The notes beneath the pieces were generated by a model. The model was not told the origin of the DNA. It did not search any database and worked only from the letters and a program-made list of their open reading frames with translations. The translations under genes and the position numbers were made by a program. 64,000 nt of DNA, from NCBI RefSeq assembly GCF_027247405.1, contig NZ_CP097463.1, positions 3,844,001-3,908,000 on the forward strand, written 5' to 3'. Positions 27,044-58,507 of this stretch are shown in pieces (the first letter of the stretch is position 1; every line of letters starts with the position of its first letter). Source of the DNA: Jatrophihabitans cynanchi. Lineage in GTDB: Bacteria; Actinomycetota; Actinomycetes; Mycobacteriales; Jatrophihabitantaceae.

Positions 27044-27070
27044 CTCAGCAGTCGTAGTAGAGCTCGAACT
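27044..27070. repeat. attL core, 27 bp
   Basis: Identical to 57082-57108. On the minus strand it encodes the end of GlnA1 (ELYYDC and stop). Similarity continues about 45 bases to the left with a hairpin and a few changes, whereas to the right it stops at once. Confidence 0.9.
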
Positions 27071-28375: not shown

Positions 28376-28376
28376 C

Positions 28377-28398: not shown

Positions 28399-28400
28399 AG

Positions 28401-28486: not shown

Positions 28487-28495
28487 ATCCGGCGG

Positions 28496-31714: not shown

Positions 31715-31776
31715 GGCCGTCTCCTCCTCCGCATCGCGAATGGACACGGCGGACGCTGCCACCGAACAGGCCCAAA

Positions 31777-31862
31777 CGTTAGCCCGAGGAATCAGTCACG
31801 CAGCCCTGCCAGCAAAGGGGATCCCGCCGATCCTCGGCATAACGCAGACCTCGGCATAATCG
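31777..31862 (-). repeat. RIT right inverted repeat, 86 bp
   Basis: Reverse complement of 28401-28486 with four differences. The last two bases (CG) are shared with the interrupted OrfB sequence. The promoter of the trio must lie between this repeat and 31714. Confidence 0.85.
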
Positions 31863-32476: not shown

Positions 32477-32742
32477 AGGACCACGGAGCGCTTGAGGACA
32501 TCGCGCTCCATCCGCAGCTCGGCGTTCTCCGCACGCAGCCGCTTCAACTCATCAAGATCATCACGGGACAGGCCGTCTCGGCCCTCACGTGCTACGCGGT
32601 CACGAGCGACCCAGTTGCCCAGCGTGCCCTCGTTGACCCCCAGGTCACGAGCGATCTGCGCGATCGGCTTGCCGGTCTCGTGCACCAGCCGCACCGCGCC
32701 CTCGCGGAACTCCGCATCGAACTTCCTGCGCTTCTCTGGCAT
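32452..32742 (-). CDS. IS3-type OrfA
   Basis: A 96-residue helix-turn-helix protein (KFDAEFREGAVRLVHETGKP, IAQIARDLGVNEGTLGNWV) followed by a leucine-zipper region (LKRLRAENAELRMERDVLK). It binds the element ends and, fused to OrfB, forms the transposase. It looks intact although the OrfB part is broken. Confidence 0.88.
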   Translation of the reverse strand: MPEKRRKFDAEFREGAVRLVHETGKPIAQIARDLGVNEGTLGNWVARDRVAREGRDGLSRDDLDELKRLRAENAELRMERDVLKRSVVLWVKEATK

Positions 32743-32786
32743 GACTACTCCTCATAGTGCATGCCTCCACGGTTTCGGGGGATTTC

Positions 32787-33046
32787 CAAGGGGGACGAGT
32801 ACGCGGCTTGGCGATGTAGGAGCGCTGACCTACTGGATCCTGTTCGTGTGCTTGACGGGCGAGGTCGAGCGCCGCGTTCAGGTCGCCGGTGAACACGGCG
32901 TACGTGGATGCGGTGTAGAACGCGTCCGTGATCTCGACTGCGGCCTGGGTTGGTCGGGCGGCAACGTCGCGGCGAGGTCGGGGCGGCGGGTGGCGATCTG
33001 GCGGGCGCGCAGCCGGCCCGCGTTGGCGGCCACCCGAGTTGGGTCA
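32787..33046 (-). pseudogene. LuxR/ATPase-type regulator, internal remnant
   Basis: Two frames give TRVAANAGRLRARQIATRRP, DLAATLPPD and AVEITDAFYTASTYAVFTGD, LNAALDLARQAHEQDP, RSYIAKPRTRP. Joined to 27475-28042 across the IS3 element it gives YIAKPRTRP-PTLALSGRFEEA, a natural TPR-like stretch. The upstream part has been cut off by the IS1634-type element. Confidence 0.6.
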
Positions 33047-33052
33047 ATCGGC

Positions 33053-33891
33053 TTAGTGCCTTGAATCGGGTGTCGTCAGCTCGGTGAGGGTCTTGGCCAG
33101 TTCGGGTCTGATCTCGGGCGCGAAGGTTTGGGTGACGCCGTTGATCTCGATGTCGGCTGATCGCAGTGGCTTGAGGGTAAGCAGCACGCGTCGTAGCGAT
33201 AGGCCGGTGCGGTTCTGCACGGTCCGGGAGACCGCGAGCGCGGTGAACACGATGGTCAGGTGCGCCTCGATGGCGTCGCGGGTGCGGGCGAACAGCGGCC
33301 GGGCGGCTAGGTCGGACCATCCGGAACGACTGCTCGACGCGCCACAGGTCGTGGTAGCTGGCGATCACCTCGCCGGCGGGCATGACGTCGGGTTCGATGT
33401 TGGTGACGTAGCCCTTGAGCCCAGCCAGGCGGCGGGCGCGCGCGAGCGCACGTTCATCGAGGGCGAGGTCGTCGTTTGCTGTCTTGACGAACCGGGGCTT
33501 GCGGGCCGTCTTCTCGCCCTCGACCACGGCGCGGGCACGGTTCTCTTGCGCGGTGAGGGTCTTGTTGTCCCGGACGGATCGCTTGGTGGAGTAGGCCCAG
33601 ATCGCCCGCCACGAGCCTGAATGCTCGGTCGGGTTCCATACCGGTTCGGCCCGCTTGAGCACGTCGTTGTCGTCGTTGCGGCCGATCTTCGGGGTGATGG
33701 TGTCGATCACCTGACCGTCGGTGAACAGTTCGCCGTGCCAGCGGAGGTGAGACTCCAGGTCGATCGGCGCCTTCGTCTGTCGGGAGTCGACGATGAACTT
33801 GTAACCGGCCTCATCCAGGGCGGTGAGGTTCTTCGCGGACAGCATCCCGGCATCGGCGACCACCACCATGTGCTCGATCTGATGCCGCCCC
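33053..33891 (-). pseudogene. IS1634-type transposase, C-terminal piece
   Basis: The frame reads HMVVVADAGMLSAKNLTALD (catalytic Asp), KFIVDSRQTKAPIDL, DNKTLTAQENRARAVVEGE, AGLKGYVTNIEPDVMPAGE and YHDLWRVEQSFRM (catalytic Glu). A frameshift near 33310 then moves it to DLAARPLFARTRDAIEAHLT and SRTVQNRTGLSLRRVL. So the gene is broken by the IS30 insertion and by this indel. Confidence 0.85.
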
Positions 33892-35214
33892 GGATTCAAG
33901 GAGTCGTCGCAACACCCGAGTTGATTGGTGTTGTGACGGATGAGATCGAGTCGAGCACGCCGGTCGAAGCTGGGGTCGCTGGGTCCGCCGACGGTTCGGC
34001 AGGACGTGCGGCGGCGGTTCTGGAAGCTGATTGCCGAGGGTTGGCAGAATTCGGCGGCCGCGGCTGGAGTGGGCGTGTCGGAACCGACGGGCTGGAAGTG
34101 GTTCACCGAGGCTGGCGGCATGTGTCCGATCGATCTTGCCGAGCCGTCTGGTCGGTATCTGTCGTTCGCCGAGCGAGAAGAGATCGCGATGCTGTTCGCG
34201 CAGAAGCTGGGAGTGCGTGAGATCGCACGGCAGGTCGGCCGGAGTCCCTCGACGATCTCGCGGGAGTTGCAGCGCAACGCGGCCACCCGGGGCAACCGGT
34301 TTGACTACCGAGCCTCAACGGCGCAGTGGCATGCCGAGCGGCGCGCGCGCCGGCCGAAGCTAAGCAAGCTGGCCACCAACGACCGGTTGCGTGAGCACGT
34401 GCAGGCCAAGCTGAGCTGCCGCGAGCACTGGAGCCCGGAACAGATCGCTCGTCGGCTGGAGCTCGACTTCCCCGACGATAGCTCTATGCGGGTTTCCCAC
34501 GAGGCGATCTACCAGGCGTTGTATGTGCAGGGCCGCGGCGCGTTACGCCGCGAGTTGACCGCGTGCCTGCGCACCGGGCGGGCGGTCCGTAAGCCCCAGC
34601 GGCGACCCGGGGTGCGCGGCAAACGGGCCATCCCGCCCGAGATCATGATCAGTGAACGGCCGGCCGAAGTCGAAGACCGCGCCGTGCCCGGCAACTGGGA
34701 AGGCGTTCTGATCATCGGCTCAGCGAGCTCGGCGATCGGCACGCTGGTCGAACGCAAGACCAGGTTCACCATGCTGGTGCACCTGCCGCGGCTGCCCGGA
34801 CTCGCCCAAGGCGAGCGGGGCTGGAGCGGGCGGGGCGCCGAAACCGTGCGCGACGCGCTAGCCGCCACCATCGCCACGCTGCCTCGCGAACTGCGCCGCA
34901 CGCTGACCTGGGACCAGGGCTCGGAGATGTATCAACACGCACAGCTGAAGATCGCCGCCGGCATCGAGATCCACTTCTGCGACCCACACAGTCCGTGGCA
35001 GCGCGGCGCGAACGAGAACAACGGCCTGCTGCGCCAGTACTTCCGAAAGGCACCAACCTGACAGCGCACACCGCTGACGATCTCGCCGAGGTCGCCGCCG
35101 CGCTCAACCGCCGACCCCGCAAGACACTCGGCTGGAAGACCCCCGCCGAAGTCTTCAACGAAGAACTACTATCGCTAGCGAACTGACCCGTGTTGCGACG
35201 ACCACTTGAATCCG
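33892..35214 (+). mobile_element. IS30-type element
   Basis: Inverted repeats of 24 bases: GGATTCAAGGAGTCGTCGCA at 33892 onward and its complement ending at 35214. It contains one transposase gene on the plus strand, opposite to the IS1634-type gene it interrupts. Length is about 1.3 kb. Confidence 0.82.
33940..35186 (+). pseudogene. IS30-type transposase, frameshifted near its end
   Basis: The first frame (to 35061) has the HTH_38 domain (LSFAEREEIAMLFAQKLGV, REIARQVGRSPSTISRELQR), then [20 protein letters not shown] and [15 protein letters not shown] with [20 protein letters not shown], the DDE residues of IS30 transposases. At about 35045 one C is missing (TTCCGAAAGG where TTCCCGAAAGG is expected). 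The end continues in the next frame as [20 protein letters not shown] and [16 protein letters not shown] to 35186. Confidence 0.85.
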
Positions 35215-36016
35215 CCCGCGCCTGGAACTGTCTTATGATCGGCACGATGGTCAGCTGCTCGGCCTTGTTCCCTTCGAAACACCCGATCTCCAAAGGGAAA
35301 CCGGCTCGGTCGACCAGCAGCCCGACCACGATCTGCGTGTCGACACGGCGTTCCTTGGAGAAGCCGACCTTACGCAGCTCGTCCTCGTTGTCGGCCTCGA
35401 AGTACAGCGTCGTCACGTCATATAACACAAGGCTGATGTCGCCGTGCGTGGCCGCGTGGGTGAAGCACAAGGCCGCGAGCTGGTCGCGATACTGCCCGTC
35501 GACGCACCGTCGCAGGGTGCGCTTGCGAGTGGACAGGCTCACCGAGACCCGGCCCATCTCGGCCAGCACCCGATCGACGTCGGACAGGCTGGTCGGCTCC
35601 ACCACGCGGGCGATCACCAGGTCGCGGAACACCGGATCGCCGAGCGCGTCGAACCCGAGACTGGAGTAGACGCCGGCGAGCGCGTCGAACAACACCTGCG
35701 AATTGGTCCTGACGACCCGCGCCCGCGCCACCCGGTGCACCGGCGGCGAGTCCGGCGCGAACAGCGCGGCAGAGGCTGGCTGGCCGACCAGCGTGGCCCG
35801 GCTGACCGCAGGGGTGAGTCCGAGATCCAGAACGCCCTGACCGTCATCTTCGAGCAGTCGGTGCGCCTGCTCGATCAGCAGCCCCAGCTCGGCCTCGTCG
35901 CGGGCCGACCCGACATGACGCACGATCCGCCGACTGACTCGGCGATCTGCACCGCGGTCGCTCCCGAGGCCGTCGGCACCCGCCGAACCCACGCCACCAG
36001 CCGAGCCTACGGGCAC
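35215..36016 (-). pseudogene. IS1634-type transposase, N-terminal piece
   Basis: From a GTG at 36016 the frame reads HVGSARDEAELGLLIEQAHR, GVYSSLGFDALGDPVFRDLV, IARVVEPTSLSDVDRVLAEM, SLVLYDVTTLYFEADNEDEL and GFPLEIGCFEGNKAEQ, ending at IIRQFQAR where the IS30-type element begins. These are the conserved blocks of IS1634-family DDE transposases. Confidence 0.85.
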
Positions 36017-36469
36017 GAATTAGTGCCTAGAACACGCACTACGAACAATCAAAATCCCCAGAAACACTGGGTTTCATACGCGAACCGGCTCTCACGTGAC
36101 CCAACAGCGCGGCATCCATCGCCGGGCCGACCAGGGTGGGGGTGAGTCAGCCTTGCGGACGCGTTGTTTCCAAGGCCGAGCGCTCGCGAGCACCGCGAGC
36201 AGCGCAGGGTCGGGGATGTCGCAAAGCGTTCGGCTTCCGCGAGCATCGCGTCGGTCTGCCGGGCCGGGACCTAGTCGCTGAATCCGGCCGGGAGGCGGTC
36301 GGCGGCAAGCCCGGCGTGTCCGAGCGCGGTGGATGCCACGGCCGTACGCGCGAGTTCGGCCGCGCGCTCGCGCCGCCTTCGACGGCCGCGGCGGGGCTGG
36401 CCGTGTCACGGAGGTCAGCGACAGTGTCGTAGACACCCGCGGGGCGCGGCATGCGGCGGCAACGCTCGG
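36017..36469 (-). other. Decayed region without an intact gene
   Basis: Fragments of apparent coding sequence occur in several frames on the minus strand (for example ARTAVASTALGHAGLAADRL and TDAMLAEAERFATSPTL), with stops and frame changes. They may be the upstream part of the LuxR/ATPase-type gene cut by the IS1634-type element, but this is uncertain. Confidence 0.3.
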
Positions 36470-37081
36470 CTACTGCTTGAGCGATTCGGTTTGCTCGCAT
36501 TGAAGCCCAACGACCGCACTACCGGCAAAGGAAACGACGGCAAGCAAGCCGTACACCAGTGCCGCGTGTCGCGACGCTGCGTAGCTGGCTGCACAGATCT
36601 TCGGCCGGTCTGGGCTGTAGAGACCCTGCGGATCCACTCGGCTGAGTGTCGAACCGCACATCTCCGAGTTCTTTCCAATCAGCAGGTAGGCAGCAGCGAT
36701 GCTTGCAAGTGCAACGGACAGCAGGCAGATTCCAGCGGCAATCGCGCTGGCAGCTGCTTGTCTGCGGCGAACCTCGTGTCTCTTTCGTCGAACGACGAGC
36801 GCAAGCCCAAGTAGGGCGATCGCCAGTATCGCGACGACGATGATCCAGTGCCAGCGTCGCGTCGTAACGACCGAACACCCATCACCAGCTGGTGGGTTCA
36901 CTGCGGTTTGGCAATAAGTATCGGGCAGTTCCCACAGCGGCGTGAATATCAGGAGACATTCCAGAGCTGCGCAAAACACCACTACAGTGAGCAGCAGCGA
37001 GTAAACGATATGAGCCCAGCCCACTGGGCCGCGCAGGGCAAGACGATATCGATTTCTACTCGGCGCTCGCGCCACTCGCAC
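36470..37081 (-). CDS. Four-helix membrane protein of the secreted-protein cluster
   Basis: A 203-residue membrane protein with helices at about 20-48, 78-98, 112-135 and 170-195. The extracytoplasmic loops hold Cys residues (DTYCQTAVNPPAGDGCSVV and MCGSTLSRVDPQGLY..ICAAS), so disulfides outside the cell are likely. It is the last of five co-directional genes. Base composition is visibly lower in GC than the chromosomal genes. No known family was recognised. Confidence 0.6.
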   Translation of the reverse strand: MRVARAPSRNRYRLALRGPVGWAHIVYSLLLTVVVFCAALECLLIFTPLWELPDTYCQTAVNPPAGDGCSVVTTRRWHWIIVVAILAIALLGLALVVRRKRHEVRRRQAAASAIAAGICLLSVALASIAAAYLLIGKNSEMCGSTLSRVDPQGLYSPDRPKICAASYAASRHAALVYGLLAVVSFAGSAVVGLQCEQTESLKQ

Positions 37082-37091
37082 AGCCTTTCGC

Positions 37092-37736
37092 TCAGGCCTT
37101 GAGTATCTCCGACGAGGTGCGATCGCTCATCGAAGAACCGTCGGGCAGATACATCGTATAGCAGTCGCCAGCTCCGTAGCCGCAGTCGATATACTTTCCG
37201 GCGCCGTATAGGCCATTGTTGTAGTTTGAATCAATGTAGTGGTAGAAGTGGTTGCAGCCACTGGAACTTAGAGCCGATGATACTTTGTCGTTCCAGCCAG
37301 GAGGCATGGTTGGCACGTAAAAGGCATAGGTGGACGAGCATCCTTGAGTTGCGTACCAGTAGTAGTAGTTTCCGCCGTAGTGCGTATCCCAATAGTCTGC
37401 ACCCAGAAGGTATTGCGAGTCTGCTGACAGCCGCCCATTCGCAGCGATGGTGGCCGCAAATTCCTCCCTGACCTTGTCGTCCGACATCGACAAATAGTTT
37501 GTGTTTCCAGTCGCAGTTGCAAGCGCTTCCCCTTGCGTCGCGAAGCACTGGGCTATCGTTCGCGCCGCCTTGTCGTTGGGTATCAGCTCTTGTGCGCAGT
37601 AGGACCCCGTCAGGGCCCGTGTCGACAATTCCTGACTCGACAGTGCGACGGCGGGAAATGCGCGAACTGCGGGCGCAAGTGTCACCGCGAGAGCAGCAGT
37701 AACCAGAAACCCAATCAATGACCGTCGCATGATCAT
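37092..37736 (-). CDS. Secreted Tyr/Asn-rich protein, inhibitor I36/crystallin-like
   Basis: A 214-residue precursor with a clear signal peptide (MRRSLIGFLVTAALAVTLAP, cleavage near AVRAF). The mature part has a helical region and a C-terminal part rich in Tyr, Asn and Gly: HYGGNYYYWYATQGCSSTY, PPGWNDKVSSALSSSGCNHF and GLYGAGKYIDCGYGAGDCY. The WNDKVSS block is like that of actinobacterial peptidase inhibitor I36 / beta-gamma crystallin-type secreted proteins. Four or more Cys suggest disulfides. Role unknown. Confidence 0.6.
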   Translation of the reverse strand: MIMRRSLIGFLVTAALAVTLAPAVRAFPAVALSSQELSTRALTGSYCAQELIPNDKAARTIAQCFATQGEALATATGNTNYLSMSDDKVREEFAATIAANGRLSADSQYLLGADYWDTHYGGNYYYWYATQGCSSTYAFYVPTMPPGWNDKVSSALSSSGCNHFYHYIDSNYNNGLYGAGKYIDCGYGAGDCYTMYLPDGSSMSDRTSSEILKA

Positions 37737-37751
37737 GCTCCTAACGTCTTC

Positions 37752-38771
37752 TTATGGACTGGATTGGTGGCACCTATTACGCCGTACTCCAGTGACCAAT
37801 AAACATCCAACGACAAATGCGACAGCTAGTGTCGCCAATAGGATGTATTCTGTCGCCCAGCTACGGGCAGCGGCGACATCAAAGCGCACGAGTTTACCGT
37901 CGCGTGTCCGGTGTCCGTCGGTCAGCAGCTTAACGAGCATTCGCTGAGTTCCCTTAGCTGTCGTGCGGATTTCGAATTCGCCGGATCGCGAGCCAATCAC
38001 TGCGGCGACCGGGATCAGGGGAGGGCCCGCAAGCGATAGCCCGGAATCCACGATTTCGATCGATAGCTTGATATTCGTTGCGGGCTTCGTGTCTGCGTTC
38101 TTCACAGTGTACCGAATTCTCACCAACTGTCCGACGCTGGGCGGACTGAGCGGAGGCGCAACTTCCAGGCTAAGGTCGTCGGGGCCGTCTGAGTTCCATA
38201 TGAGGCCGCTGCCTGCCGAGAAGATCTCGACGCTGTCTAAACTGGACGAAATTGATTGCGACAGTGATTCTAAGTCGAACGATATAGTGCTTGGCCCGGG
38301 CCGGATTCCGGCTACTTGCACATAGTTGCTAAATGTAAAGTCGACCGCATGCGTCGCGGACTCATGATCCACTTGTCCATTAATGTCAACCGTATTCCAT
38401 GCCATGCCGCCGTTTGGCCCTTGGTCCAGATCGAACATGACCGAGGCAGAAGCAGCTCCATTCACTTTGGCGGTGAGGTATGAAATCCCTCGGGCGTGCG
38501 GAAGGAACGAAACCCGTGCGTGGAGGAAGATCTGCCACCAGCGCGTCGGGCCTTGCTCAGCCCCCCGCGGCAGGGTGATTGCCACTGCCTGCTGTGGCGT
38601 CGAGCTCGTAATCTTGATGTCCTGGTAGCCGAGCCTCGCTAGGGACCACTGACCTGGCGTAAGGATGGCGTGATTCGACTGCGGTTCGGCCGCTGCCGGG
38701 GGTATGAGGACCAGTGTCATGAGACCCGCGGCGGCAGAAGCCAGCACGCGCCTTGCGCGCCCGAGAGTCAC
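37752..38771 (-). CDS. Extracytoplasmic protein with C-terminal membrane anchor
   Basis: A 339-residue protein. The GTG at 38771 overlaps the upstream stop (GTGA). A signal peptide (VLASAAAGLMTLVLIPPAAA) is followed by two beta-rich regions (about 35-195 and 200-290); the second, VGQLVRIRYTVKNADTKPAT, looks like a CARDB/NEW3-type Ig-like domain. A final helix (TEYILLATLAVAFVVGCLLV) with an Arg-rich end anchors it in the membrane. It is likely the surface partner of the secreted proteins encoded beside it. Confidence 0.6.
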   Translation of the reverse strand: MTLGRARRVLASAAAGLMTLVLIPPAAAEPQSNHAILTPGQWSLARLGYQDIKITSSTPQQAVAITLPRGAEQGPTRWWQIFLHARVSFLPHARGISYLTAKVNGAASASVMFDLDQGPNGGMAWNTVDINGQVDHESATHAVDFTFSNYVQVAGIRPGPSTISFDLESLSQSISSSLDSVEIFSAGSGLIWNSDGPDDLSLEVAPPLSPPSVGQLVRIRYTVKNADTKPATNIKLSIEIVDSGLSLAGPPLIPVAAVIGSRSGEFEIRTTAKGTQRMLVKLLTDGHRTRDGKLVRFDVAAARSWATEYILLATLAVAFVVGCLLVTGVRRNRCHQSSP

Positions 38772-39442
38772 GGGATGACGCAGCGATGCAGGTTCCCGTC
38801 GTTCTGCCAGATATGGCTCCCGCCATCGTCGTACCGTATAGGCTCTGAGTTTCCGATGCCGACGGCGTTGGCCGCACAGGAGTATCCCTTGCCCACGAAA
38901 AAGGTACGGATATCGTTCGATACGCTCTCGCTGTACCCGTAATAGGTGCCGCATCCCGAAGATTCGTAGTAGTCGTAGTGGGTAGTTCCAACTACGTAGT
39001 AGCCATCGGTCGGGTTATATAACCGATCGTCGCCGTCTGCGTAAAGACGGATGTGTTTGTCGATGGTGTTGCATCCGTTTGGCGTCTTTCGACCCCCATC
39101 GGAATCCCATGCGTAGCCGGATCCATCATTGAGGTACATACGCATCGTGCTTCCGGTGTCTGGATACGTGCTACCCAGGACACCTTTCACCTTGTTGATG
39201 GTGGCATTGCTCTTGAAGAACATCGTTGTCGTCCAGTCGACGTTCGTCCGCTTGTTTGGATCAGAGGTATCGGTGTGGTCGTATGAACCGATGACGTCGC
39301 CTCCGGCGAAGCTGACGTATAGATTATTACCGGCACGGGCGGTCGCCGCGTTCGACGGCGCGGCGGCGGTCATCGCGAGTGCGCCGGTTACCGCCACAAC
39401 GGCGAGCAGTGAGATTGTCCGACGCGTCGAGGACGTACGCAT
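38768..39442 (-). CDS. Secreted protein of unknown family
   Basis: A 224-residue precursor with a signal peptide (SLLAVVAVTGALAMTAAAPS, cleavage near SNA). The mature domain is rich in Tyr, Asp, Gly and Asn: YVSFAGGDVIGSYDHTDTSD, MRMYLNDGSGYAWDSDGG, YADGDDRLYNPTDGYYVVG and DYYESSGCGTYYGYSES. Four Cys could make two disulfides. The Asp/Gly loops suggest calcium or sugar binding, but no family was recognised. Stop overlaps the next start. Confidence 0.6.
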   Translation of the reverse strand: MRTSSTRRTISLLAVVAVTGALAMTAAAPSNAATARAGNNLYVSFAGGDVIGSYDHTDTSDPNKRTNVDWTTTMFFKSNATINKVKGVLGSTYPDTGSTMRMYLNDGSGYAWDSDGGRKTPNGCNTIDKHIRLYADGDDRLYNPTDGYYVVGTTHYDYYESSGCGTYYGYSESVSNDIRTFFVGKGYSCAANAVGIGNSEPIRYDDGGSHIWQNDGNLHRCVIP

Positions 39443-39457
39443 AGTGAGGCCCTTCGG

Positions 39458-40048
39458 CTAACTGTTCGCCGGCACGCCGGCTCCTGGGAGTAACGCGATG
39501 ACGTCGCCGGTCGTTAGATTGACGAGGACGCCTATCGAACTCACTTCTTGTCCCGTGTCGCTGCTGAGTTCGGTGGCTTCGTCAATAGGCAGTTGCGTGC
39601 CGCCTTCTGGAACGAACTTAAGAACTGGGACGCCCGCCGGGAACACAACACTGTGGGAGAGATCAACTATCACGCCCGCGCCCACAAAGTCCTTTGGCCC
39701 ATCTACGCCGGTCATGGGCCCGGTCTGCGTCGAGTCGACCGCTACGGACGCGCTACCAGCGACCCTCGTAACCAGTGGCGAGTTCAGTGCGATCTGCTCG
39801 GCGGCGGCGGCCTGTTCGGGTGTGAGCCCGCTTGGCGGTCCCGAGGGCGCGGGACTCGGCGGCGTCGTTGTGCCAATAGACTCGACGGTCGGCTGCTGTG
39901 CTCCATCGACTGAGCCGGAAAGCGCGGACGTCGTAGATAACACTGCAACCGCAGCTATAACCGATGCAACGATGAGACCGATGCCCGTCCGTCTGCGGAG
40001 CCTGTCGCCGCCTGCTGACGCGTATAGACGCTTCATGTAACACCCCAT
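39458..40048 (-). CDS. Membrane-anchored or secreted protein, first gene of the cluster
   Basis: A 196-residue protein (or 192 if the second Met is used). A basic start and a hydrophobic helix (GIGLIVASVIAAVAVLSTTS) lead to a Pro/Ser/Thr linker and a compact domain of about 110 residues containing FVGAGVIVDLSHSVVFPAGV and VSSIGVLVNLTTGDVIALLP. No Cys in the mature part. The next gene is 15 bases away on the same strand, so this is probably the promoter-proximal gene of the operon. Confidence 0.55.
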   Translation of the reverse strand: MGCYMKRLYASAGGDRLRRRTGIGLIVASVIAAVAVLSTTSALSGSVDGAQQPTVESIGTTTPPSPAPSGPPSGLTPEQAAAAEQIALNSPLVTRVAGSASVAVDSTQTGPMTGVDGPKDFVGAGVIVDLSHSVVFPAGVPVLKFVPEGGTQLPIDEATELSSDTGQEVSSIGVLVNLTTGDVIALLPGAGVPANS

Positions 40049-40620
40049 AGCTCATTGAGGTTATGTATGCAACAGGTATGCCCGAGATAGGAACTGGGTG
40101 AGAAGTAGATCATTTGATTGCTGTGAAGTCAACAGTCTGGTACACGGATCTGCACTCGTAGAACGAGTGCGGTCACGGTAGGACCGGATCAAGTCTCCAA
40201 AGCAGCCCAGGACGCCGGTGCGAACACATGCCGTGATCGGCTAAGGAGCGAGCAGTGCTGTCCCCGGCGCAAAAAAGTGGCGTCCCATCGTCGGTGCCGC
40301 TAGCGGAAGGCTGCGAGCTTGCACGGCGATTCAATGTCCACGGTCCCGCGAACGACGCCGAATGCTTCGACGTCCAGGGAATTGACCCCTCCACGCTGGG
40401 CAGCCGCGCTGCCCAAGCTGCCGTCATGCAATGCGAGGCGAGTGCGACCTCAGCCCTGGAGGCGATGATCGAGGCGTATGAGGGAGGATCGGGCTCTCCC
40501 TCCGCGCGTAACTCGGCTGAATTGCATGCCCTGCAGGCAAGGCGGCTCGGATCACAACGGGCGAATGAGATCACCGCGATCTGGTGTCGCTAGCCACCGT
40601 CATGGGACCGGCTTGAGTCG
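40049..40620. other. Region upstream of the secreted-protein cluster
   Basis: The first 110 bases are AT-rich and should contain the promoter for the cluster. A 112-codon frame on the plus strand (40255-40593, ALEAMIEAYEGGSGSPSARN) and one on the minus strand overlap each other; neither has a recognisable domain or ribosome site, and no gene is called. Confidence 0.3.
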
Positions 40621-40622
40621 AG

Positions 40623-40790
40623 TTGTCGCGCACGCACCGGGATCGGGCGATGGTGTTGGCGATGGTGCTGGGCGCGCTGCACCGCTGCGAGGTCTTGGGC
40701 TTGCGACCGGCTGATCTGAGGATCGGCGAACGACGCGTGTTCATCGGCGAAGGCAAGGGCGGACAAGATGTCGGCGCGGGCCGGCGCGAC
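40623..40790 (+). pseudogene. Tyrosine recombinase fragment
   Basis: RDRAMVLAMVLGALHRCEVL, GLRPADLRIGERRVFIGEGK and GGQ match the region around the first catalytic Arg of XerC/D-like recombinases, with the central GGLRRCE-type motif. Nothing of the other catalytic boxes is present, so it is a relic of about 55 codons. Confidence 0.6.
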
Positions 40791-40996
40791 GACGTTGACC
40801 AGCAACACACGGGCGATCGCGGCGGAGTTGGCAGGCTGCGTCTTCGTCTGAGTCCGTGTTGATGTGCGTGACGCTGACGTCGCGGGCGTGCTGAGCGAGA
40901 CACGGCGGTTACTGCGTTGTAGCGCGCGGTAGACAGTAGAGCGGGCGACACCGAACAGGTCCCCGACCTCGCCGGTCGTCTACTCACCCGACCCGA

Positions 40997-41475
40997 TCAG
41001 TTCACCAAGTGCGCTTCCTGTCTCGGGCTGGGCTTGGGCTGCGTGCCGCGCAGGTGGCCTTTGGCCCTCGCGACCTTCATAGCCTCCCTCGTGCGCATCC
41101 TGATCAAGTCAGACTCGAACTCGGCGACCATCGCCAGCGCGTTGAACAACAGTCGGCCCACGGGGTCAGTTGGGTCGTAGACCGAACCGCCCAGGCTGAG
41201 CTTCACCTTGCGGCGGGTGAGGTCTTCAGCGATCGCCCGCGCGTCGGGCATCGACCGGGCAAGCCGGTCGAGCTTGGTGAAGACGAGCGTGTCGCCGGCC
41301 CGGCACGCGGCCAGGGCCTCGCGCAAGCCGGGCCGTTCCCGGTTGGTGCCGGTCAAGCCGTGGTCGACATAGGTGCGCGACGGTTCCACACCCAACTGGG
41401 CCAGGCCATCACGTTGCGCGGTGAGGTCCTGTTCCTTGGTCGACACTCTGGCGTAGCCGACGAGCAATCCGCCCA
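40997..41475 (-). CDS. Serine resolvase/invertase, C-terminus truncated
   Basis: The N-terminal catalytic domain is complete: LVGYARVSTKEQDLTAQRDG with the Ser nucleophile, YVDHGLTGTNRERPGLREAL, DTLVFTKLDRLARSMPDA and ALAMVAEFESDLIRMRTREA. The frame stops after RQEAHLVN. The missing helix-turn-helix can still be read in another frame just downstream (TTGEVGDLFGVARSTVYRAL, about 40885-40975), with a stop between. So the DNA-binding tail has been lost by an indel. Confidence 0.8.
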
Positions 41476-41615
41476 TGGCTGCCTCCTTCAGACGACCGCG
41501 CCAGCGCGCACCGCGTCGGCTCCGGCGACGGCATTTGCCGCTCCCACCAGTGGACCGCTCGTGCGCATCAACGATGGGCGCTTCAGCGTCGCGGTCAGGC
41601 ACGCTGCCGAACGGC

Positions 41616-42206
41616 TCAGCCGCAGTGGACGGCGTGCCAGGCGTTGATCTGTCCGAGTTGCACGTCGACATCGTCGGCCGCGTTCAGATCCTCCCGGCCG
41701 GCCAGATTCGCGTCCAGGCCTCGCGCCAAGCCCCGCAGGTAGCTCCTGGGCGGATCGGGTGCCTCCTTCGCCAGCGTGTTCGCCGAGGAGACGGCCGCTC
41801 GCATGCTTGCGGTCTCCTCGGCGGTGTACGGATCGCTGCTCCCGCCCTGGACCACCTTGAGGATGTTGCCCGCGTACAGGCCGGACAACGCGCCGCCGAG
41901 GTCGGAGCAGAACGTCTGCCGGCTCGCCGTGCCGCCGGAACCGCCACCACCCGCCGCGACGGCGATCACCACCACCACGACACCGGCGGTGACCAGGGCG
42001 CCCAGGGCCCACCAGAGCCGGCGCGGACGTCGCGGACCGGCGCTCGGACCGGGCGGACCCGATGGCTCGTTCGAGGCGCGAAGCGCAGCCGGGTCCACCC
42101 ACTGCGTGCCGTTCCAGACCTGCTGGGCCGTCCACGCCGACCCGGTCCAGAACCGCTGTACCCGCGGATCGGCCGGATCCGCGTACCACCCTGTCGGAGC
42201 GCTCAT
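41616..42206 (-). CDS. DUF2510 membrane protein
   Basis: A 196-residue protein. The start ATG at 42206 is followed at once by TGWYADPADPRVQRFWTGSA, the DUF2510 domain common in actinobacterial membrane proteins. A Pro/Arg linker, one membrane helix (LWWALGALVTAGVVVVVIAV) and an extracytoplasmic helical domain of about 85 residues with two Cys follow. Function unknown. Confidence 0.75.
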   Translation of the reverse strand: MSAPTGWYADPADPRVQRFWTGSAWTAQQVWNGTQWVDPAALRASNEPSGPPGPSAGPRRPRRLWWALGALVTAGVVVVVIAVAAGGGGSGGTASRQTFCSDLGGALSGLYAGNILKVVQGGSSDPYTAEETASMRAAVSSANTLAKEAPDPPRSYLRGLARGLDANLAGREDLNAADDVDVQLGQINAWHAVHCG

Positions 42207-42408
42207 CGTGACCGTCCCCCGAACTGCGGCCAGCTTGGACCGCGCCATTCGAGCAGCACCGGATCCGCGCGCGCAATAGTCGTGGCGTGCATTCGCCGCT
42301 AAGTGCGCGCAGACCGCGGATCCCTGCCAACGACCGCCAGCAGGCGGTCCTGCGGGTCGGCCGACCTGAGCTCGATCCGGGACGGCGTTCGACGACGCGA
42401 TCGCGACG

Positions 42409-42627
42409 GTGACGCGCTGGCTGTCCTTCCTCGCAGCTGAGGCGCGCGCCGCCCGCCCGGACCTGTCGAAGGTTGCTGCGCGTGATCTGGCCACGGTGCT
42501 CAACGGGATCGCGATGTCCGTCAACCAGGAGATCCAACTGCTTGCCGATCCTTCGGCCGGTCGGCGTGCGCGCCGCCTGATGCGCGCCGCCGTCGACACG
42601 TTCGCGTCGCGACCGCGGGAGAGCTGA
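42409..42627 (+). CDS. Small protein or remnant, possibly a TetR-type C-terminus
   Basis: A 72-codon frame with GTG start: RWLSFLAAEARAARPDL, ATVLNGIAMSVNQEIQLLAD and RRARRLMRAAVDTF. The helix pattern recalls the ligand domain of TetR-type regulators, but the DNA-binding part is missing. It may be a remnant. No strong ribosome site. Confidence 0.35.
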   Translation: MTRWLSFLAAEARAARPDLSKVAARDLATVLNGIAMSVNQEIQLLADPSAGRRARRLMRAAVDTFASRPRES

Positions 42628-42833
42628 CGCCGATCATGCGGTCACTCTTCCCCGAGCGGACGGGTCCACCGAATCGGCTCTGTCCGCGGTGCGGGACTTC
42701 GCGGTGTTCCTGACCATCCAGCGCGGCAAGCAGGACTGGGCGTTGGTCGAGTCGGCGATGTCGAACCGTTCCTCGCCGCGCACCCCAGGATGCGTGGACG
42801 GCACCTCAGCGTGCTCGGTCAGGTTCTTCCGCT

Positions 42834-43478
42834 TCAGCCGGCGGTGCCGGGTTGCAGGCCGTGTGTCTCGCTCGCCCGCGTGGTGGGGCCGGTGGGCCCA
42901 GGTTGCTGGTGGGCCAGGATCGAGGCGAGATCGCGGTCGGCGAAGCGGCCGGCCAGCGCAGCGGTGCCCAGCGCCTGATCAACTGCGGCGGACCCGTGCA
43001 GCTTGGCGAAGGTGACGGCCTCGGCCATCTTCGACCGGACCCTGCTCGCGCCGGTGGCGGCGGCCTCGATCAACCATGCCCCGTCGCCGATGGCCAGAAA
43101 CGCTTCCTCGGCCGGGTTCGCGGCCCGCGGTGTCCGGTCACCGGGCACCGCCCGGCGCCCGGGGTGATCGGGCGGGTAGCGCGCGTCGATGACGCTCGGC
43201 CGCCCGCGCGAGTGCCGGGCGATCTCGCGAGCTCCGGCCGGCTCGTTGATGGTGACCACGAGTTCATCGCCGGCCCACCGGACCCAGACCCACTCATCGA
43301 CATGCTGGTGCGGCACCGAGTAATGCGCGCCGTCGACGCTGATCGTGGCGTCCCACCCGACCCGGCGGGTCTGCCCGAACGCGACCGTCACCGGCTGGAC
43401 CGGCAGCGAACGCGCATGACCCCTGCCCTCCCGCCATCCCAAACCTTCACCCGGACCTGCATGGCGCATTCCGTTCAC
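42834..43478 (-). pseudogene. IS21-type IstA transposase, C-terminal fragment
   Basis: VTVAFGQTRRVGWDATISVD, HYSVPHQHVDEWVWVRWAGD, RTPRAANPAEEAFLAIGDGA, SKMAEAVTFAKLHGSAAVDQ and GRFADRDLASILAHQ are the C-terminal Mu-transposase-like part of IS21 IstA proteins. The N-terminal HTH and DDE core and the partner istB are absent, and the last residues run out of frame. Confidence 0.75.
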
Positions 43479-43540
43479 CTATTCGGCATTTCCAACGCGT
43501 ATTCACTATTATCAAGCCTTTCGCAAGAACGGCACGCATG

Positions 43541-43580
43541 CTACCAATAATGGTAGGAAGGTCACCCCTTCCGGGGTGAC
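43541..43580. other. Paired hairpins before the relaxase, candidate oriT
   Basis: CTACCA-ATAA-TGGTAG (43541-43556) and GTCACCCC-TTCC-GGGGTGAC (43561-43580) are two perfect inverted repeats 4 bases apart, in a stretch of about 130 bases that is clearly AT-rich. They end 40 bases before the relaxase start. MobF origins of transfer usually lie beside the relaxase gene and contain such hairpins. A terminator role for the second hairpin is possible. Confidence 0.4.
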
Positions 43581-43620
43581 ATGAAATGCATTGTTGGTTG
43601 TTATTGAATGGTGTTGGTTA

Positions 43621-46600
43621 ATGCACGGCGGGATGAAGACGTACCGGGGTTCACCGGCTGCTGCACGCAACTATGTGGAGGCCGGTCGGGGCCGCGCGGA
43701 CGACTACTACCTGACCGAGGGCGCCGGGATCGCGGAGCGTTTTGCGGTCTCCCCAGATACCGGGGTGCGCCGGTTGGAGCCGTTGACCGGTGCGGCATAC
43801 GAGAGCTGGGTGGCCGGGGTGGATCCGGACACTGGCGTACCGAAGGGCCGGCTGCGCCATGACGAGAAGGCGGTTCGGTTCGTCGAGGTCGTCGTGAACG
43901 GACCCAAGTCCTGGTCCCTGGCCGCAGAATTACATCCCGATATCTCGGAGGCCTATGACGCGGCGCAAGAGCGCGCCGCGACGCAGATTATCGCGTGGTT
44001 GGCGCAGCACGCGACCACCCGGGTGGGTCCACGGGGCGCGCAGGTGCAGGTGCCGGTGCAGCAGCTGGAGGCGGTGACGGTGCGGCACCACACGTCCCGG
44101 GCCGGGGATCCGCATCGGCATCTGCATCTGCAGATCAACGCCCGGGTGTTCGCCGCGGGACGCTGGCGCGGTCTGCACACGGTCGGGGTGCGTGACTCGT
44201 TGGATGCGATCAACGGTATCGGGCACGCCGCGGTCATGACCGATCCGCAATTTCGCCAGGCGCTCGCCCGCAACGGTCTGACCGTCAATCCCGACTCGGG
44301 CGAGGTCACCGAGCTGGCCGAATTCGTCGGTCCGTTCAGTGCCCGGGCGGCACAGATCGGCCGCAACATCGAGCGCTACGAAGCCGACTGGCGCGCCGCA
44401 CACCCCGGACACGAACCCGGCCCCGCGCTGCGCCGCGGCTGGGATACGCGGGCCTGGGCAGAGGACCGTCCGGACAAGATCGTGCCGCGCGACGGGGCCG
44501 AGTTGACGGGGCGGTGGGTCGAGGAACTGCGTGCGCTCGGGTATCGGGACAGCCACGTGAGGGGGCGTGTGGATGCGGCTGCGGTCGGTGAGCTGGACCG
44601 CGACCGCGCAGTCAGCGAGGTGTTGGCACGGCTCGCGGCGCGCCGCTCGGGATGGAACGCCGCCGACATCCGCGGCGAGGTCGAGCAGCTGCTCGCGCGC
44701 CGCAACATCGTCACCGAACCCGGCGTGCGCAGCGAGTTGGCCGAGGATCTGACCGCCCGGGCGCTGGCCGAGTGCGTGCCGCTGCTCGACCGCCTTGAGG
44801 TTCCCGAGCACATCCGGGCACTCAGCTCCCGGCAGGTGCTCGAGGTCGAAGCCGACCTCACCGCTCGCCTTGCCGCACGCGCCAACACCACGCAGACCAC
44901 TGTGCGGGAGGGCCGCGAAGACGCTCTTGAGGACGGTTTCGAGGGCCTTGACGGGGCACAGCGTGAGGTCGTCGCCGCGCTCAGCGGTGACCGCCGGCTG
45001 GTGGTCGTGGAGGGCGCCGCCGGAGCCGGGAAGACCACCACCCTGGCCGCCGCCCGCACCGCCATCGACGCGCAGGGCGCCCGGCTGATGGTGGTGACCC
45101 CGACGTTGAAAGCCGCCAACGTCGCCGCCCGGCAGGTCGGCTCGCGGGCGTCGTCGGCGGCGTGGCTGGCCTATCAGCATGGTTTCCGGTGGGACGAGCA
45201 CGGTAACTGGACCCGCCTCGCCGTCGGCGAGATTGACCCGCACACCGGTCTCGCCCACGCTGGCCCGCGCCTGGACGCGAGGCTGCGTGCGGGCGATCTG
45301 CTGCTGGTGGACGAGGCCGGCATGCTCGATCAGGACACCGCCCGCGCGCTGCTGATCATCGCCGACGAGCACCAGGCGCGGCTCACCTTCCTGGGTGACC
45401 GGCACCAACTGCCGGCAGTCGGACGCGGTGGTGTGCTCGATCTCGCGGCCCGCTGGAGCGACCCCGCCGGCTGCCTCACGCTGGACACGGTGCACCGGTT
45501 CACCTGCACCGGTCCGGACGGCGCCCGGGTGAGCGTTCCGGACGAGCAGTACGCGCAGCTGAGTCTGGCGATGCGCACCGGCGAGGACCCGGGCGCGGTG
45601 TTCGACGCACTGCTGGCCCGCGATCAGATCCGGGTCCATGCCGGCGACCCGGATCGCGTCGCTGCGCTCGCCGACACCGCCGTCCAAGCCCTCGATGCCG
45701 GGTCGCCGGCAGCTGTCGTGGCCGACACCCGCGAACAGGTCACCGGGCTGAATGCGGCGATCCGTGAACGCCTGATCGCCCTCGGGCTCGTCGACGACCG
45801 GCGCACGGTTACGACTCGGGCGGGGGAGCGGATCGGGGTCGGGGACCTCATCGCGACCCGCCGCAACAACACCGAGCTGGGTGTCGCGAACCGCGACACC
45901 TGGACCCTCACCCAGCTCGCAGCGGACGGGCAGGTCACCGTTACCGGACAGCACGGCGACCGGACGCTGCCTGCGTCTTATGTGCGTGAGCATGTCGAGC
46001 TCGCCTACGCCAGCACGGTGCACGGCGCGCAGGGCGAGACCATCGACAGCGCGCACCTGCTGCTCGGTGAGCACACCAGCGCCGCGTCGGCCTACGTCGC
46101 GATGACCCGCGGCCGGCACACCAACACCGCCCACCTCGTCGCCGACAGCACCCAGGACGCGCGGGAGCAGTGGCTCGCGGCCTTCGGCCGCGACCGCGCC
46201 GACCTCGGTCCGGCCCACGCCGCACAGCTCGCCGCGCAGCAAGCGAGCCGGTACGCGACCGGCCGCCCTGTCGAACAAGTGCTGGTCGAGCTACGGAAGG
46301 AATGGGACACCGAGGCCCGCTGCCGTGAACGGCTCGACCGGGCCGTGCCGATCCGCGACCAGCTGAGCGAGATCGTGGTACTGCGCCGCGACCACAGCAG
46401 CCAACTCGCACCACTCGCGGCGCAGTACGAGGAGGCCAAACACGCCGCCGCCGACGCGGCCGCCCGCGCAGCGCACGCCGCGGCCGCCATCGCGGCCCAG
46501 GCCGATCACCTGCGCGGACGCCTTCAGGCCCAATGGGACGCCCAACGCGATGCGGCCCGCAGCCAGGCGCGGATCGTCTTGGCCGGTCCCGGCCGCCTTG

Positions 46601-47241
46601 GACTGCGGCTGGTCGCGGTGAACCGGGCCACCGAGCAGCTGGCCCGCTGGTCCCTGAGCTGGCAACCGATCCTGCCCGACATGCCCACCAGCACCCGCCA
46701 GATCGCCTACTACGCCAACCGCTACGACAACCCGGCCAGCCTGCACGCCGCCTTCGAGCGGTACGCCCACGAACAAGCCGAACAGGCCCACCCCGACGAC
46801 GGGCAGCTGCTCGCCGCCGTCGAGGCGACCATTCGCGAGCGCGAGCACGCCTGGCGCCAGCTCCACGACACCCGCCGCGCGCACGCCGCGCAGCTCGGCC
46901 GGTACGGACGGCTGGCCCACACCGAGAACCCGGGCGAGCGGATCGAGCAACTCGACCACGACATCAATCACGACCGCTCCCACCTGGCTACCGCTCGGGC
47001 GCGCATCGCCCAGCTCACCGCCGAGCCCGCGATCCACAGCCGGCCACCGGAGTTCCTCACCACCGAACACCAGAGCTGGAAGACCGACCGCGACAGCGAA
47101 CGCGAAGCCGCGCAACTCATCCGCGCGGCCCGCGCCGCCGCCGAATCCGAAGCAGCCGCCCGCGAGCGGATCCGCTACACCGCCAACCAGGACCGGTACC
47201 AGAGCCCAGCGCCGCACCACGGGCCCAGCATCGGCCGCTGA
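43621..47241 (+). CDS. MobF relaxase-helicase (TrwC/TraI type)
   Basis: A protein of about 1206 residues that would nick oriT and unwind the transferred strand. The relaxase domain (about 1-300) starts MKTYRGSPAAARNYVEAG, has Tyr residues in DDYYLTEG, NGPKSWSLAAELHPD and the metal-binding three-His motif in DPHRHLHLQINAR. The helicase part (about 440-850) has Walker A VVEGAAGAGKTTTL, Walker B LLLVDEAGMLDQ and AYASTVHGAQGETIDSAHLL. The C-terminal 300 residues are Ala/Arg/Glu-rich and helical. It appears intact, the largest gene of the element. Confidence 0.92.
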   Translation: MHGGMKTYRGSPAAARNYVEAGRGRADDYYLTEGAGIAERFAVSPDTGVRRLEPLTGAAYESWVAGVDPDTGVPKGRLRHDEKAVRFVEVVVNGPKSWSLAAELHPDISEAYDAAQERAATQIIAWLAQHATTRVGPRGAQVQVPVQQLEAVTVRHHTSRAGDPHRHLHLQINARVFAAGRWRGLHTVGVRDSLDAINGIGHAAVMTDPQFRQALARNGLTVNPDSGEVTELAEFVGPFSARAAQIGRNIERYEADWRAAHPGHEPGPALRRGWDTRAWAEDRPDKIVPRDGAELTGRWVEELRALGYRDSHVRGRVDAAAVGELDRDRAVSEVLARLAARRSGWNAADIRGEVEQLLARRNIVTEPGVRSELAEDLTARALAECVPLLDRLEVPEHIRALSSRQVLEVEADLTARLAARANTTQTTVREGREDALEDGFEGLDGAQREVVAALSGDRRLVVVEGAAGAGKTTTLAAARTAIDAQGARLMVVTPTLKAANVAARQVGSRASSAAWLAYQHGFRWDEHGNWTRLAVGEIDPHTGLAHAGPRLDARLRAGDLLLVDEAGMLDQDTARALLIIADEHQARLTFLGDRHQLPAVGRGGVLDLAARWSDPAGCLTLDTVHRFTCTGPDGARVSVPDEQYAQLSLAMRTGEDPGAVFDALLARDQIRVHAGDPDRVAALADTAVQALDAGSPAAVVADTREQVTGLNAAIRERLIALGLVDDRRTVTTRAGERIGVGDLIATRRNNTELGVANRDTWTLTQLAADGQVTVTGQHGDRTLPASYVREHVELAYASTVHGAQGETIDSAHLLLGEHTSAASAYVAMTRGRHTNTAHLVADSTQDAREQWLAAFGRDRADLGPAHAAQLAAQQASRYATGRPVEQVLVELRKEWDTEARCRERLDRAVPIRDQLSEIVVLRRDHSSQLAPLAAQYEEAKHAAADAAARAAHAAAAIAAQADHLRGRLQAQWDAQRDAARSQARIVLAGPGRLGLRLVAVNRATEQLARWSLSWQPILPDMPTSTRQIAYYANRYDNPASLHAAFERYAHEQAEQAHPDDGQLLAAVEATIREREHAWRQLHDTRRAHAAQLGRYGRLAHTENPGERIEQLDHDINHDRSHLATARARIAQLTAEPAIHSRPPEFLTTEHQSWKTDRDSEREAAQLIRAARAAAESEAAARERIRYTANQDRYQSPAPHHGPSIGR

Positions 47242-47900: not shown

Positions 47901-47974
47901 CGTAGACGCGACCCGCCGCCATGGCAATTAGCCAAATATGTGCGATACCGTGCTGTTCTTGTACGGTAATGCAC

Positions 47975-55746: not shown

Positions 55747-55859
55747 GGCCGAACCTGCACCGGTTCGGCGGCGAAGGAGGCCTGCAGCGCGCGCGCACGG
55801 CTTGCACGGCGAGCGCTAGGTACGGGACAAGAGACATACCTCAGTGTTAGGACTTGGCC

Positions 55860-57038
55860 ATGGACACGGTTGATCAGGAGCATGGCGGTCTTCGGCCCCG
55901 CCGCCGACGAGCTGCTGTCGAGGATTTGTGGCGCAAGCGCGACGGCAGCCCGTCCGCTCGCGCGGGCCGCGGGCTGCGCTGGCGCGCCCGGTACGTCGAC
56001 GACACGGGAACCGAGCGCAGTCAGGCATTCGAGCGCAAGGTCGACGCACAGCGCTGGCTCGATGCCGTCACCGCGTCCCTGATCCGCGGCGACCACGTCA
56101 CGCCGAGGTCGGCCAGGATGACGGTGGGGGAGTGGGCCGATACCTGGCTCGCCGGGTACAGCCGCCGGGCCTCGACCATTCGGCAGGCCGAGGTACACAT
56201 CAAGGTCATCAAGGCCACGTTCGGCAGGGTGCCGCTGTCCGCGGTGAAGCCGTCCGACGTGAAGCACTGGACGAAAACACTCAAGGTCGCGGGCCGCTCG
56301 GACTCCTACGTCTACGCGTTGCACTCCCGGCTCTCACAGCTGTTCAGCGATGCCGTGCATGACGGGATTATGCCGCGTAACCCGTGCTCACGGCGCACGT
56401 CACCGGGCACCGGGAAGCCGCGTCCCTACGTCGCGACGACGGCGCAGGTGTGGGCGCTGTACTACGCCGTACCGGACGGGATCCGGCCGGCCATCCTGCT
56501 CGGCGCGCACGCTGGCCTGCGGCTGGCCGAAGCGGCCGCGCTGCGGCCCGAGGACATCGACTTCATGCGCGGCATCGTCTCGCCAGTGATCCAGTGGCCG
56601 GCCGAGCCGCTGAAGTCCGACGCCAGTAGGACGCCAATCCCGATCCCCAACGAACTGGCACTGGAGTTGTCCGCCGCTGTAGCAGCGGGAGAGGGTCTGA
56701 CGATCGTGACTAACGAACTGGGCCGTCCAGCAGGACCATGGGCAATCGAGCGGGCCATGCGTGAGGCGCGCGTCGAGATCGAGGGCCTGCCTGCCGGCTT
56801 CCGATTCCACGATCTGCGGCATTACTTCGCCAGCCTGCTGATCGCCTCCGGACTCGATGTCAAAACCGTCCAGGCCCGAGTGCGGCACGCCTCGGCCAAG
56901 ACCACCCTGGACACCTACGGGCACCTGTGGCCGGACAGGGACGAGTCGTCGCGCGCGGCTGTCGCGGCCGTCTACGCAGCGAGGAGCGACTCTCCTGCGT
57001 ACCCACTGCGTACCGGCGACGCTGAAGGCGGCCAATAA
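55860..57038 (+). CDS. int: Tyrosine integrase of the element
   Basis: A 392-residue site-specific recombinase. An N-terminal arm-binding-type domain (GLRWRARYVDDTGTERSQAF) and core-binding domain (MTVGEWADTWLAGYSRRAST) precede the catalytic domain: Arg in LLGAHAGLRLAEAAAL, His-x-x-Arg in FRFHDLRHYFASLLIASGL, and RHASAKTTLDTYGHLW with His and the Tyr nucleophile. It ends 43 bases before attR. The last codons overlap the paired TGCGTACC repeats. The ATG at 55860 is chosen. Confidence 0.93.
   Translation: MDTVDQEHGGLRPRRRRAAVEDLWRKRDGSPSARAGRGLRWRARYVDDTGTERSQAFERKVDAQRWLDAVTASLIRGDHVTPRSARMTVGEWADTWLAGYSRRASTIRQAEVHIKVIKATFGRVPLSAVKPSDVKHWTKTLKVAGRSDSYVYALHSRLSQLFSDAVHDGIMPRNPCSRRTSPGTGKPRPYVATTAQVWALYYAVPDGIRPAILLGAHAGLRLAEAAALRPEDIDFMRGIVSPVIQWPAEPLKSDASRTPIPIPNELALELSAAVAAGEGLTIVTNELGRPAGPWAIERAMREARVEIEGLPAGFRFHDLRHYFASLLIASGLDVKTVQARVRHASAKTTLDTYGHLWPDRDESSRAAVAAVYAARSDSPAYPLRTGDAEGGQ
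56996..57014 (+). promoter_or_regulatory. Candidate integrase arm-type sites, right
   Basis: TGCGTACC at 56996-57003 and 57007-57014, period 11, inside the last codons of int. The pair matches 27174-27192 closely, including flanking TCTCC or GGTTCTCC and CGGC. Two differences lie in the spacer. Confidence 0.5.
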
Positions 57039-57073: not shown

Positions 57074-57082
57074 TCAACATCC

Positions 57083-58507
<1,425 letters not shown>

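Follow-up and report, generated by a model that had tools for sequence, protein, structure and literature searches.

Predicted secreted and membrane proteins encoded by a five-gene cluster on a mobile element of Jatrophihabitans cynanchi, three of them with counterparts on a Thermomicrobium roseum megaplasmid

The five-gene cluster and its products

We examined a 64,000-base stretch of the Jatrophihabitans cynanchi genome (positions 3,844,001-3,908,000 of a single-contig genome of 4.5 Mb that is 99.67% complete; hereafter the window, in whose coordinates all positions are given), in which five minus-strand open reading frames (ORFs) fill positions 36470-40048. The encoded proteins are called P1 to P5 here (Table 1). 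A preliminary description, made from the sequence alone, had read these genes as one operon of secreted and membrane proteins carried as cargo on a mobile element. All five ORFs are present where that description placed them and are tightly packed, with gaps of 15 bases between P1 and P2, 15 between P3 and P4 and 10 between P4 and P5, and with P3 starting at a GTG that overlaps the P2 stop by 4 bases. The true start of P1 may be an ATG at 40036 (MKRL...).

Hydropathy agrees with the membrane and secretion topologies first proposed for the five products. P1 has a single N-terminal segment at residues 25-43 (a second window, at 169-187, barely passes the threshold), P2 and P4 have an N-terminal segment each, P3 has an N-terminal segment and a C-terminal segment at residues 310-328, and P5 has four segments; two of its loops, both on the same side, contain the cysteines 57/69 and 142/163. 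Tyrosine and asparagine together make up 14.7% of P2 and 13.6% of P4. The cluster is also, as previously stated, lower in G+C than its surroundings, at 0.584 versus 0.685 for the window, with single genes ranging from 0.55 to 0.62. At third codon positions, the cluster genes have a G+C of 0.61-0.70, compared with 0.85 for the relaxase gene, 0.83 for the integrase gene and 0.94 for glnA.

None of the five proteins passed a curated Pfam or NCBIfam cut-off, whether for an enzyme, a toxin or bacteriocin, or an adhesion or wall-binding domain, and PHROGs gave weak matches only, the best at E 0.038. The statement that no member could be assigned an enzyme function thus holds for Pfam, NCBIfam, PADLOC and PHROGs. 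The top sub-threshold Pfam match was that of CbtA to P5, with 17.8 bits against a cut-off of 30.7. For the Ig-like region proposed for P3, the match was one to DUF11 (PF01345, Ig-like) that reached 13.5 bits (E 0.09), below the gathering cut-off of 24.6.

Table 1. Features of the cluster and of the element that carries it, in window coordinates.
Feature	Position	Strand	Description or evidence
P1	39458..40048	-	196 aa; membrane segment near the N terminus, remainder predicted to lie outside; counterpart of WP_012642742 (T0)
P2	38768..39442	-	224 aa; secreted, 4 cysteines; best conserved member; counterpart of WP_041437263 (T1)
P3	37752..38771	-	339 aa; N-terminal signal, ectodomain, C-terminal membrane segment; counterpart of WP_012643237 (T3)
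P4	37092..37736	-	214 aa; secreted, Tyr/Asn-rich; two beta-gamma-crystallin-type motifs
P5	36470..37081	-	203 aa; four hydrophobic segments, cysteine pair in each of two loops
att repeat, distal element end (copy of glnA 3' end)	27044..27070	.	repeat comparison
IS30 family transposase, downstream of cluster	33940..35061	+	NCBIfam, 212.6 bits
IS1634 family transposase piece adjoining cluster	34766..36016	-	NCBIfam, model positions 2-207 of 483
ORF with resolvase N-terminal domain, upstream of cluster	40997..41671	-	E 3.9e-38
TrwC-type relaxase/helicase, mobilisation	43591..47241	+	E 5.9e-50
Tyrosine integrase, adjoining glnA repeat	55854..57038	+	Phage_integrase, E 2.5e-14
att repeat at glnA 3' end	57082..57108	.	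repeat comparison
glnA	57083-58546	-	3' end holds att repeat

Distant relatives of the cluster proteins

A tblastn search of 72,556 plasmid records with P2 retrieved a single match (E 2e-17), on a plasmid of 918 kb from Thermomicrobium roseum, a hot-spring bacterium of another phylum that is very distant from the host. The matching gene is one of five on one strand of the strain DSM 5159 megaplasmid, which we call T0 to T4 (WP_012642742, WP_041437263, WP_041437260, WP_012643237 and WP_012642904), all annotated as "hypothetical protein". T1 to T4 are spaced by 10, 24 and 2 bases, and 115 bases separate T0 from T1. In BLASTP comparisons against seven proteins of the region, P2 aligned to T1 at 31% over 224 columns (E 5e-26) and P3 to T3 at 25% over 204 columns (E 6e-7); P1 aligned to T0 with E 0.45 at best. 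By Smith-Waterman alignment, the P1-T0 pair has a Z of 9.4, a score reached by none of 200 shuffles. The T. roseum proteins were not selected by likeness to P1 or P3, and when 29 proteins of the region were ranked (two genes truncated at the edges of the region being omitted), the top places went to T0 for P1 (Z 9.1), T1 for P2 (33.8) and T3 for P3 (10.4), with the runners-up at 2.6, 4.7 and 2.5, respectively. The P1-T0 and P3-T3 links count only because the T0 and T3 genes sit beside T1. So a three-protein extracytoplasmic core, P1-P2-P3, is present in two phyla, and these homologues are the stronger evidence that the cluster is real beyond chance. The preliminary description held that a lack of conserved order elsewhere would speak against a joint system; the order is kept in T. 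roseum for P1-P2-P3, but P4 lies outside that set and the pairing of P5 with T4 is not significant.

Similar to the host cluster, the T. roseum operon has its P1, P2 and P3 counterparts in the same order and on the same strand, has a membrane protein last and lacks any known enzyme family, T0-T4 having none above cut-off in Pfam and NCBIfam; it is extrachromosomal. Unlike the host cluster, it has an extra membrane protein, T2, between the counterparts of P2 and P3, no established P4, a first protein longer than P1, and a G+C content equal to that of its surroundings. Hydropathy gives T2 four hydrophobic segments and T4 three or four. P4 scored a Z of 8.2 with T4, first of the 29, from a 23-residue stretch (CGYGAGDCYTMYLPD in P4 versus CGYLLADPPTAYLPD in a T4 loop, L013 7906-8343; E 0.002 against seven proteins). 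This likeness was left unused; P4 also scores a Z of 4.7 with a DUF1156 protein of the same region.

Genes for DUF499, DUF3780, DUF1156 and PLD proteins adjoin the T. roseum operon in convergent orientation. One paper reports DUF499, DUF3780 and DUF1156 for defence systems related to bacteriophage exclusion (BREX), with a standalone DUF3780 gene marking Type 2 (PMC12839542), and the authors of the T. roseum genome paper argue that the species gained its megaplasmid after it had split from the other Chloroflexi with sequenced genomes (PMC2615216). The operon's closeness to defence genes is no more than suggestive. With T0-T4 as queries, the plasmid collection returned T. roseum itself only. A literature search by the operon's accessions and tags returned no paper, a result that speaks for those identifiers and not for print at large.

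PDB searches with the P2/T1 and P3/T3 profiles gave no match each, and the five matches of the P1/T0 profile (E 0.04-1.7) were to designed repeat and leucine-rich-repeat proteins and were taken as chance. A PepSY-like fold was an impression from the P1 and T0 sequences; neither has a match to it in Pfam or NCBIfam, and we do not claim it. The possibility that P2 is an LssY_C protein (PF14067), a lead from a motif resemblance, was rejected: hhalign gave E 0.09 and a score of 16.7, which 3 of 100 column shuffles reached and which the reversed P2 profile exceeded at 18.64 (LssY_C members for this comparison came from 0 of 61 relatives and 4 of 246 genomes of the phylum). A catalytic site in P2 was likewise rejected, as charged residues are not enriched in its conserved columns (17/40 versus 46/143, p 0.26). 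This was one of 18 tests of conservation classes, two of which fell below p 0.05 (fewer conserved hydrophobics in P2, p 0.049; W/G in P3, p 0.005) and were not used.

The relatives of P4 lie elsewhere. P4 was initially labelled I36-like, yet it has no direct Pfam match of its own at E up to 10, PF03995 included. In the plasmid collection it retrieved only a Defluviicoccus vanus plasmid (E 5e-3; 1e-9 once picked out), and among 296 genomes of the class only its own genome and one other, G268 (28%, residues 8-174, E 2.0e-5 per genome). The resulting alignment, A6, has three proteins, and one of them matches PF03995 (Peptidase inhibitor family I36; E 7.7e-5). By exclusion this is the G268 protein, since P4 and the Defluviicoccus protein have no such match. 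The label therefore survives in an indirect form, in which P4 is linked to the I36/beta-gamma-crystallin proteins as a distant relative via a bridging homologue. P4 contains NDKVSS at 149, SDRTSS at 204 and, overlapping, SSALSS, and both P4 relatives have two such motifs. The pattern used, [NDS][NDS]x[ILVTM][ST][SA], was composed after the sequences were seen, and two or more matches to it occurred in 2 of 2000 shuffles of the C-terminal part of P4. In crystallins, such motifs bind calcium. Beta/gamma-crystallins were the best of six PDB matches to the single P4 sequence, but at E 0.98-1, and the A6 profile gave none. Similar to proteins of PF03995, then, P4 has two crystallin-type motifs, a signal peptide and a homologue that matches the family; unlike them, it has no Pfam match of its own, its inhibitor activity and calcium binding are putative, and it is located in a multigene cluster. 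The Defluviicoccus gene sits among metal-resistance and recombination genes, and no P1-P3-like set was seen by eye among the ORFs listed around the G268 gene. P4 seems to be an accessory added to the core.

The integrative element, its second copy and the rarity of the cluster

The cluster is cargo of an element of about 30 kb integrated at the 3' end of glnA, a 27-base sequence of which is repeated at the two ends (Table 1). That the genes are element cargo, as first suggested, is supported by the att repeats, the integrase, the relaxase and a near-identical copy in another genus. Integrative mobilisable elements with a tyrosine integrase and a TrwC relaxase are a known class, whose members share att repeats at the end of a housekeeping gene, an integrase beside one att, a relaxase, insertion sequences and accessory cargo. 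The element described here is integrated at the glnA 3' end, and no type IV secretion genes were found among the element ORFs sent to Pfam, a scan that did not take in all small ORFs. Rfam families were absent at gathering thresholds over 27000-57200.

The second copy was found in a Jatrophihabitans sp. record, the metagenome-assembled genome G011, which is of the same family and another genus. Its contig 76 (15,991 bases) is 99.77% identical to positions 32789-47777 and 100% identical to 27043-28039, lacks the 4.75 kb between those matches, and stops at one end at the att repeat. The glnA of G011 is 85% identical (positions 32-1458); its contig, 148, likewise breaks off at the 3' end of the gene. 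Two genera with glnA genes 15% apart thus have a near-identical element, which points to recent transfer, probably into the same site. The two contigs are unjoined, and contig 76 may be mis-binned. The copies differ by 1 base in 36470-40048 and by 12 in the relaxase gene, and all five cluster frames are intact in G011. This copy says little about selection, because there is only one difference over the cluster.

Several other features were noted along the element. In the 28039-32789 insert, rve transposase pieces (31796-32476 and 28071-28301) flank a pair of adjacent tyrosine recombinases (29526-30512 and 30509-31762); the insert also contains an inverted repeat of 89 bases (28398-28486 and 31777-31865). 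At 26999-27130, near the distal att repeat, a hairpin resembling the one downstream of glnA occurs twice by eye, suggesting earlier insertions at the same glnA end. Nine bases of the G011 copy are missing from the host at 43209-43211, inside a Mu-transposase-like ORF (42834-43478), and 7 of the 12 relaxase substitutions are concentrated in 49 bases (46551-46599), possibly a small recombination patch. Beside the relaxase, an AbiEi-type antitoxin/regulator domain lies at 47921-48544 (E 3.6e-12). A second low-G+C set on the element, at 50722-53112 (third-position G+C 0.67-0.73), encodes a secreted Tyr/Asn/Cys-rich protein, an extracytoplasmic function (ECF) sigma factor and a third protein, in which a single hydrophobic stretch was seen by eye and which could be the anti-sigma factor of the ECF protein. 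Of the five comparisons of the cluster proteins with that secreted protein, P3 scored highest (Z 4.0, 2 of 300 shuffles); the comparison with P4 was not significant (17 of 300). Outside the element, overlapping direct repeats lie at 4883-5302, the longest pairs being of 178-283 bases and 78-87% alike.

Occurrence was searched in genome samples drawn by class, phylum and order, which overlap one another; the pairwise E-values of weak genome matches are no yardstick, as they were computed on matches preselected from many genomes. P3 was found in 2 of 61 relatives, namely its own genome and G011, and a scan of 84,980 species genomes, which would pick up close relatives only, found one relative, on the same G011 contig. 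Among 394 class genomes, P3 gave five matches at E <=0.01, its own and four weak partial ones (E 0.0013-0.0065), of which L012 (28% over 92 residues, pairwise E 9e-6) was taken as chance. P2 matched, among 396 phylum genomes, its own and three others; the best of these, G205 (E 4.6e-5), was also taken as chance, its match starting in the signal peptide and falling within a frame of 741 aa (31% over 105 columns, pairwise E 2e-9). The P2/T1 profile matched its own genome, G011 and one weak hit (E 0.0059) in 397 order genomes, and the P1/T0 profile only its own genome in 139 phylum genomes. These samples thus hold no convincing P1-P3 relative beyond the host and G011, with three P3, two P2 and one profile weak matches, and a second weak place in the host's own genome (E 0.0034), left uninspected. 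P5 had no match in the plasmid collection, where P2 had matched T. roseum only; the phage collection gave no match for P2 or P4, and the IMG/VR scans gave none. The P1-P5 cluster is rare within the genome samples searched.

Possible roles of the cluster

We favour the reading that the five genes form a horizontally mobile operon whose products make up a complex at the cell surface and protect the carrier, and give this reading a probability of roughly 0.35. P1, P3 and P5 would be membrane-anchored with their main parts or loops outside, and would hold the secreted core P2, here also P4, at the cell surface; the two crystallin-type motifs of P4 suggest that it may fold with stabilisation by calcium. 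Instead of doing chemistry, the complex would then shield the carrier's envelope from phage adsorption, from incoming elements or from extracellular attack, which is the weakest step and a guess from the mobile-element setting. The simplest reading is a structural surface complex, given that there is no enzyme signature, that charged residues are not enriched at the conserved positions of P2 and that P2 is better conserved than the other members; we would put its chances at about even, and for protection, given such a complex, the odds are again close to level.

A number of observations weigh against this interpretation. PADLOC defence families matched none of the five proteins (E up to 1), and single-sequence AlphaFold2 models were unusable, with a mean predicted local distance difference test score (pLDDT) of 31.3 for P2 and 34.3 for P4. 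Conserved order rests on a single comparison, because only one distant operon relative was found, and in open tblastn searches of the plasmid collection, T. roseum replicon included, P3 had no match and P1 retrieved only another record (E 0.8), missing T. roseum. P5 and T4 can be aligned over a loop, CG..DP..Y.PD.P..CA, but the pair is without statistical support (Z 2.0-2.7, third of 29, score reached by 12 of 200 shuffles); no T. roseum counterpart is established for P4, and T2 has none in the host cluster. T0 has no hydrophobic segment above threshold and T3 lacks the C-terminal membrane segment of P3, and therefore anchoring differs between the two sets. The T. roseum plasmid was typed as non-mobilizable by MOB-suite, and the adjacency to defence genes is possibly chance, because those genes lie on the opposite strand. 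Finally, the claim of a single operon was upheld in part: spacing and the partly conserved order in T. roseum favour it, but a simple scan found no sigma-70-like promoter (0 versus 1.8 expected) and 10 terminator-like sites versus 3.4 expected, with four of the five on the minus strand lying within P3 or P5. Such matches are no evidence of function, yet they do not help a one-transcript reading.

The main rival, which we consider rather doubtful, is secreted antagonism, in which P2 and/or P4 would be released to inhibit competitors or their proteases while P5, P3 and P1 serve self-protection or display. Two small secreted Cys/Tyr-rich proteins share an operon with a four-segment membrane protein, a shape often used for immunity, and the distant link of P4 to Peptidase inhibitor family I36 and the mobile-element cargo setting point the same way. 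However, no toxin or bacteriocin family was matched above cut-off, no exporter is present among the five genes, P4 has no established T. roseum counterpart and looks like a dispensable part, and P2 is the best rather than the least conserved member, so that a structural core fits it better than a fast-diverging toxin. A role in envelope stress or environmental adaptation (adhesion, wall association or desiccation), with the crystallin-type P4 and anchored P3 associated with the wall, would accord with the signal-like or membrane segments in all five proteins and with the second low-G+C set, whose secreted Tyr-rich protein is accompanied by an ECF sigma factor on the same element. We regard it as unlikely, as wider spread than P3 in 2 of 61 relatives, one being the host's own genome, is expected of broadly useful genes, and no adhesion or wall-binding domain was found above cut-off.

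It is also conceivable, though improbable, that unrelated genes were stacked by successive insertions in a recombination-prone stretch and have no joint function. IS30, IS1634 and resolvase sequences do flank the cluster, P4 relatives occur outside such operons with none established in T. roseum, and terminator-like sites lie inside P3 and P5; against this stand the same-order counterparts of P1, P2 and P3 in another phylum, the tight spacing and overlap, and the similar base composition across the genes. P4 alone may be a later insertion.

Returning to the surface-complex reading, a bolder form of it, speculative and on balance unlikely, is that P1-P2-P3 with a multi-helix membrane partner would be an extracytoplasmic machine not described before, which plasmids and integrative elements carry in more than one phylum. 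It would give the carrier cell immunity at the surface, by exclusion of phage, conjugation or toxins, and P2 would be the first member of a new secreted family. What is new here is that P1, P2 and P3 each have a same-order counterpart in one T. roseum megaplasmid operon. Defence catalogues can miss surface modules that have no enzyme domain, as the 0 of 5 PADLOC matches here illustrate. Were the cluster strain-specific surface decoration, it would still be a clean case of element-borne envelope genes. A secreted and anchored set that is kept together in two phyla, and that has apparently moved recently between genera, would offer a defined unit of three to five genes for surface exclusion or antagonism.

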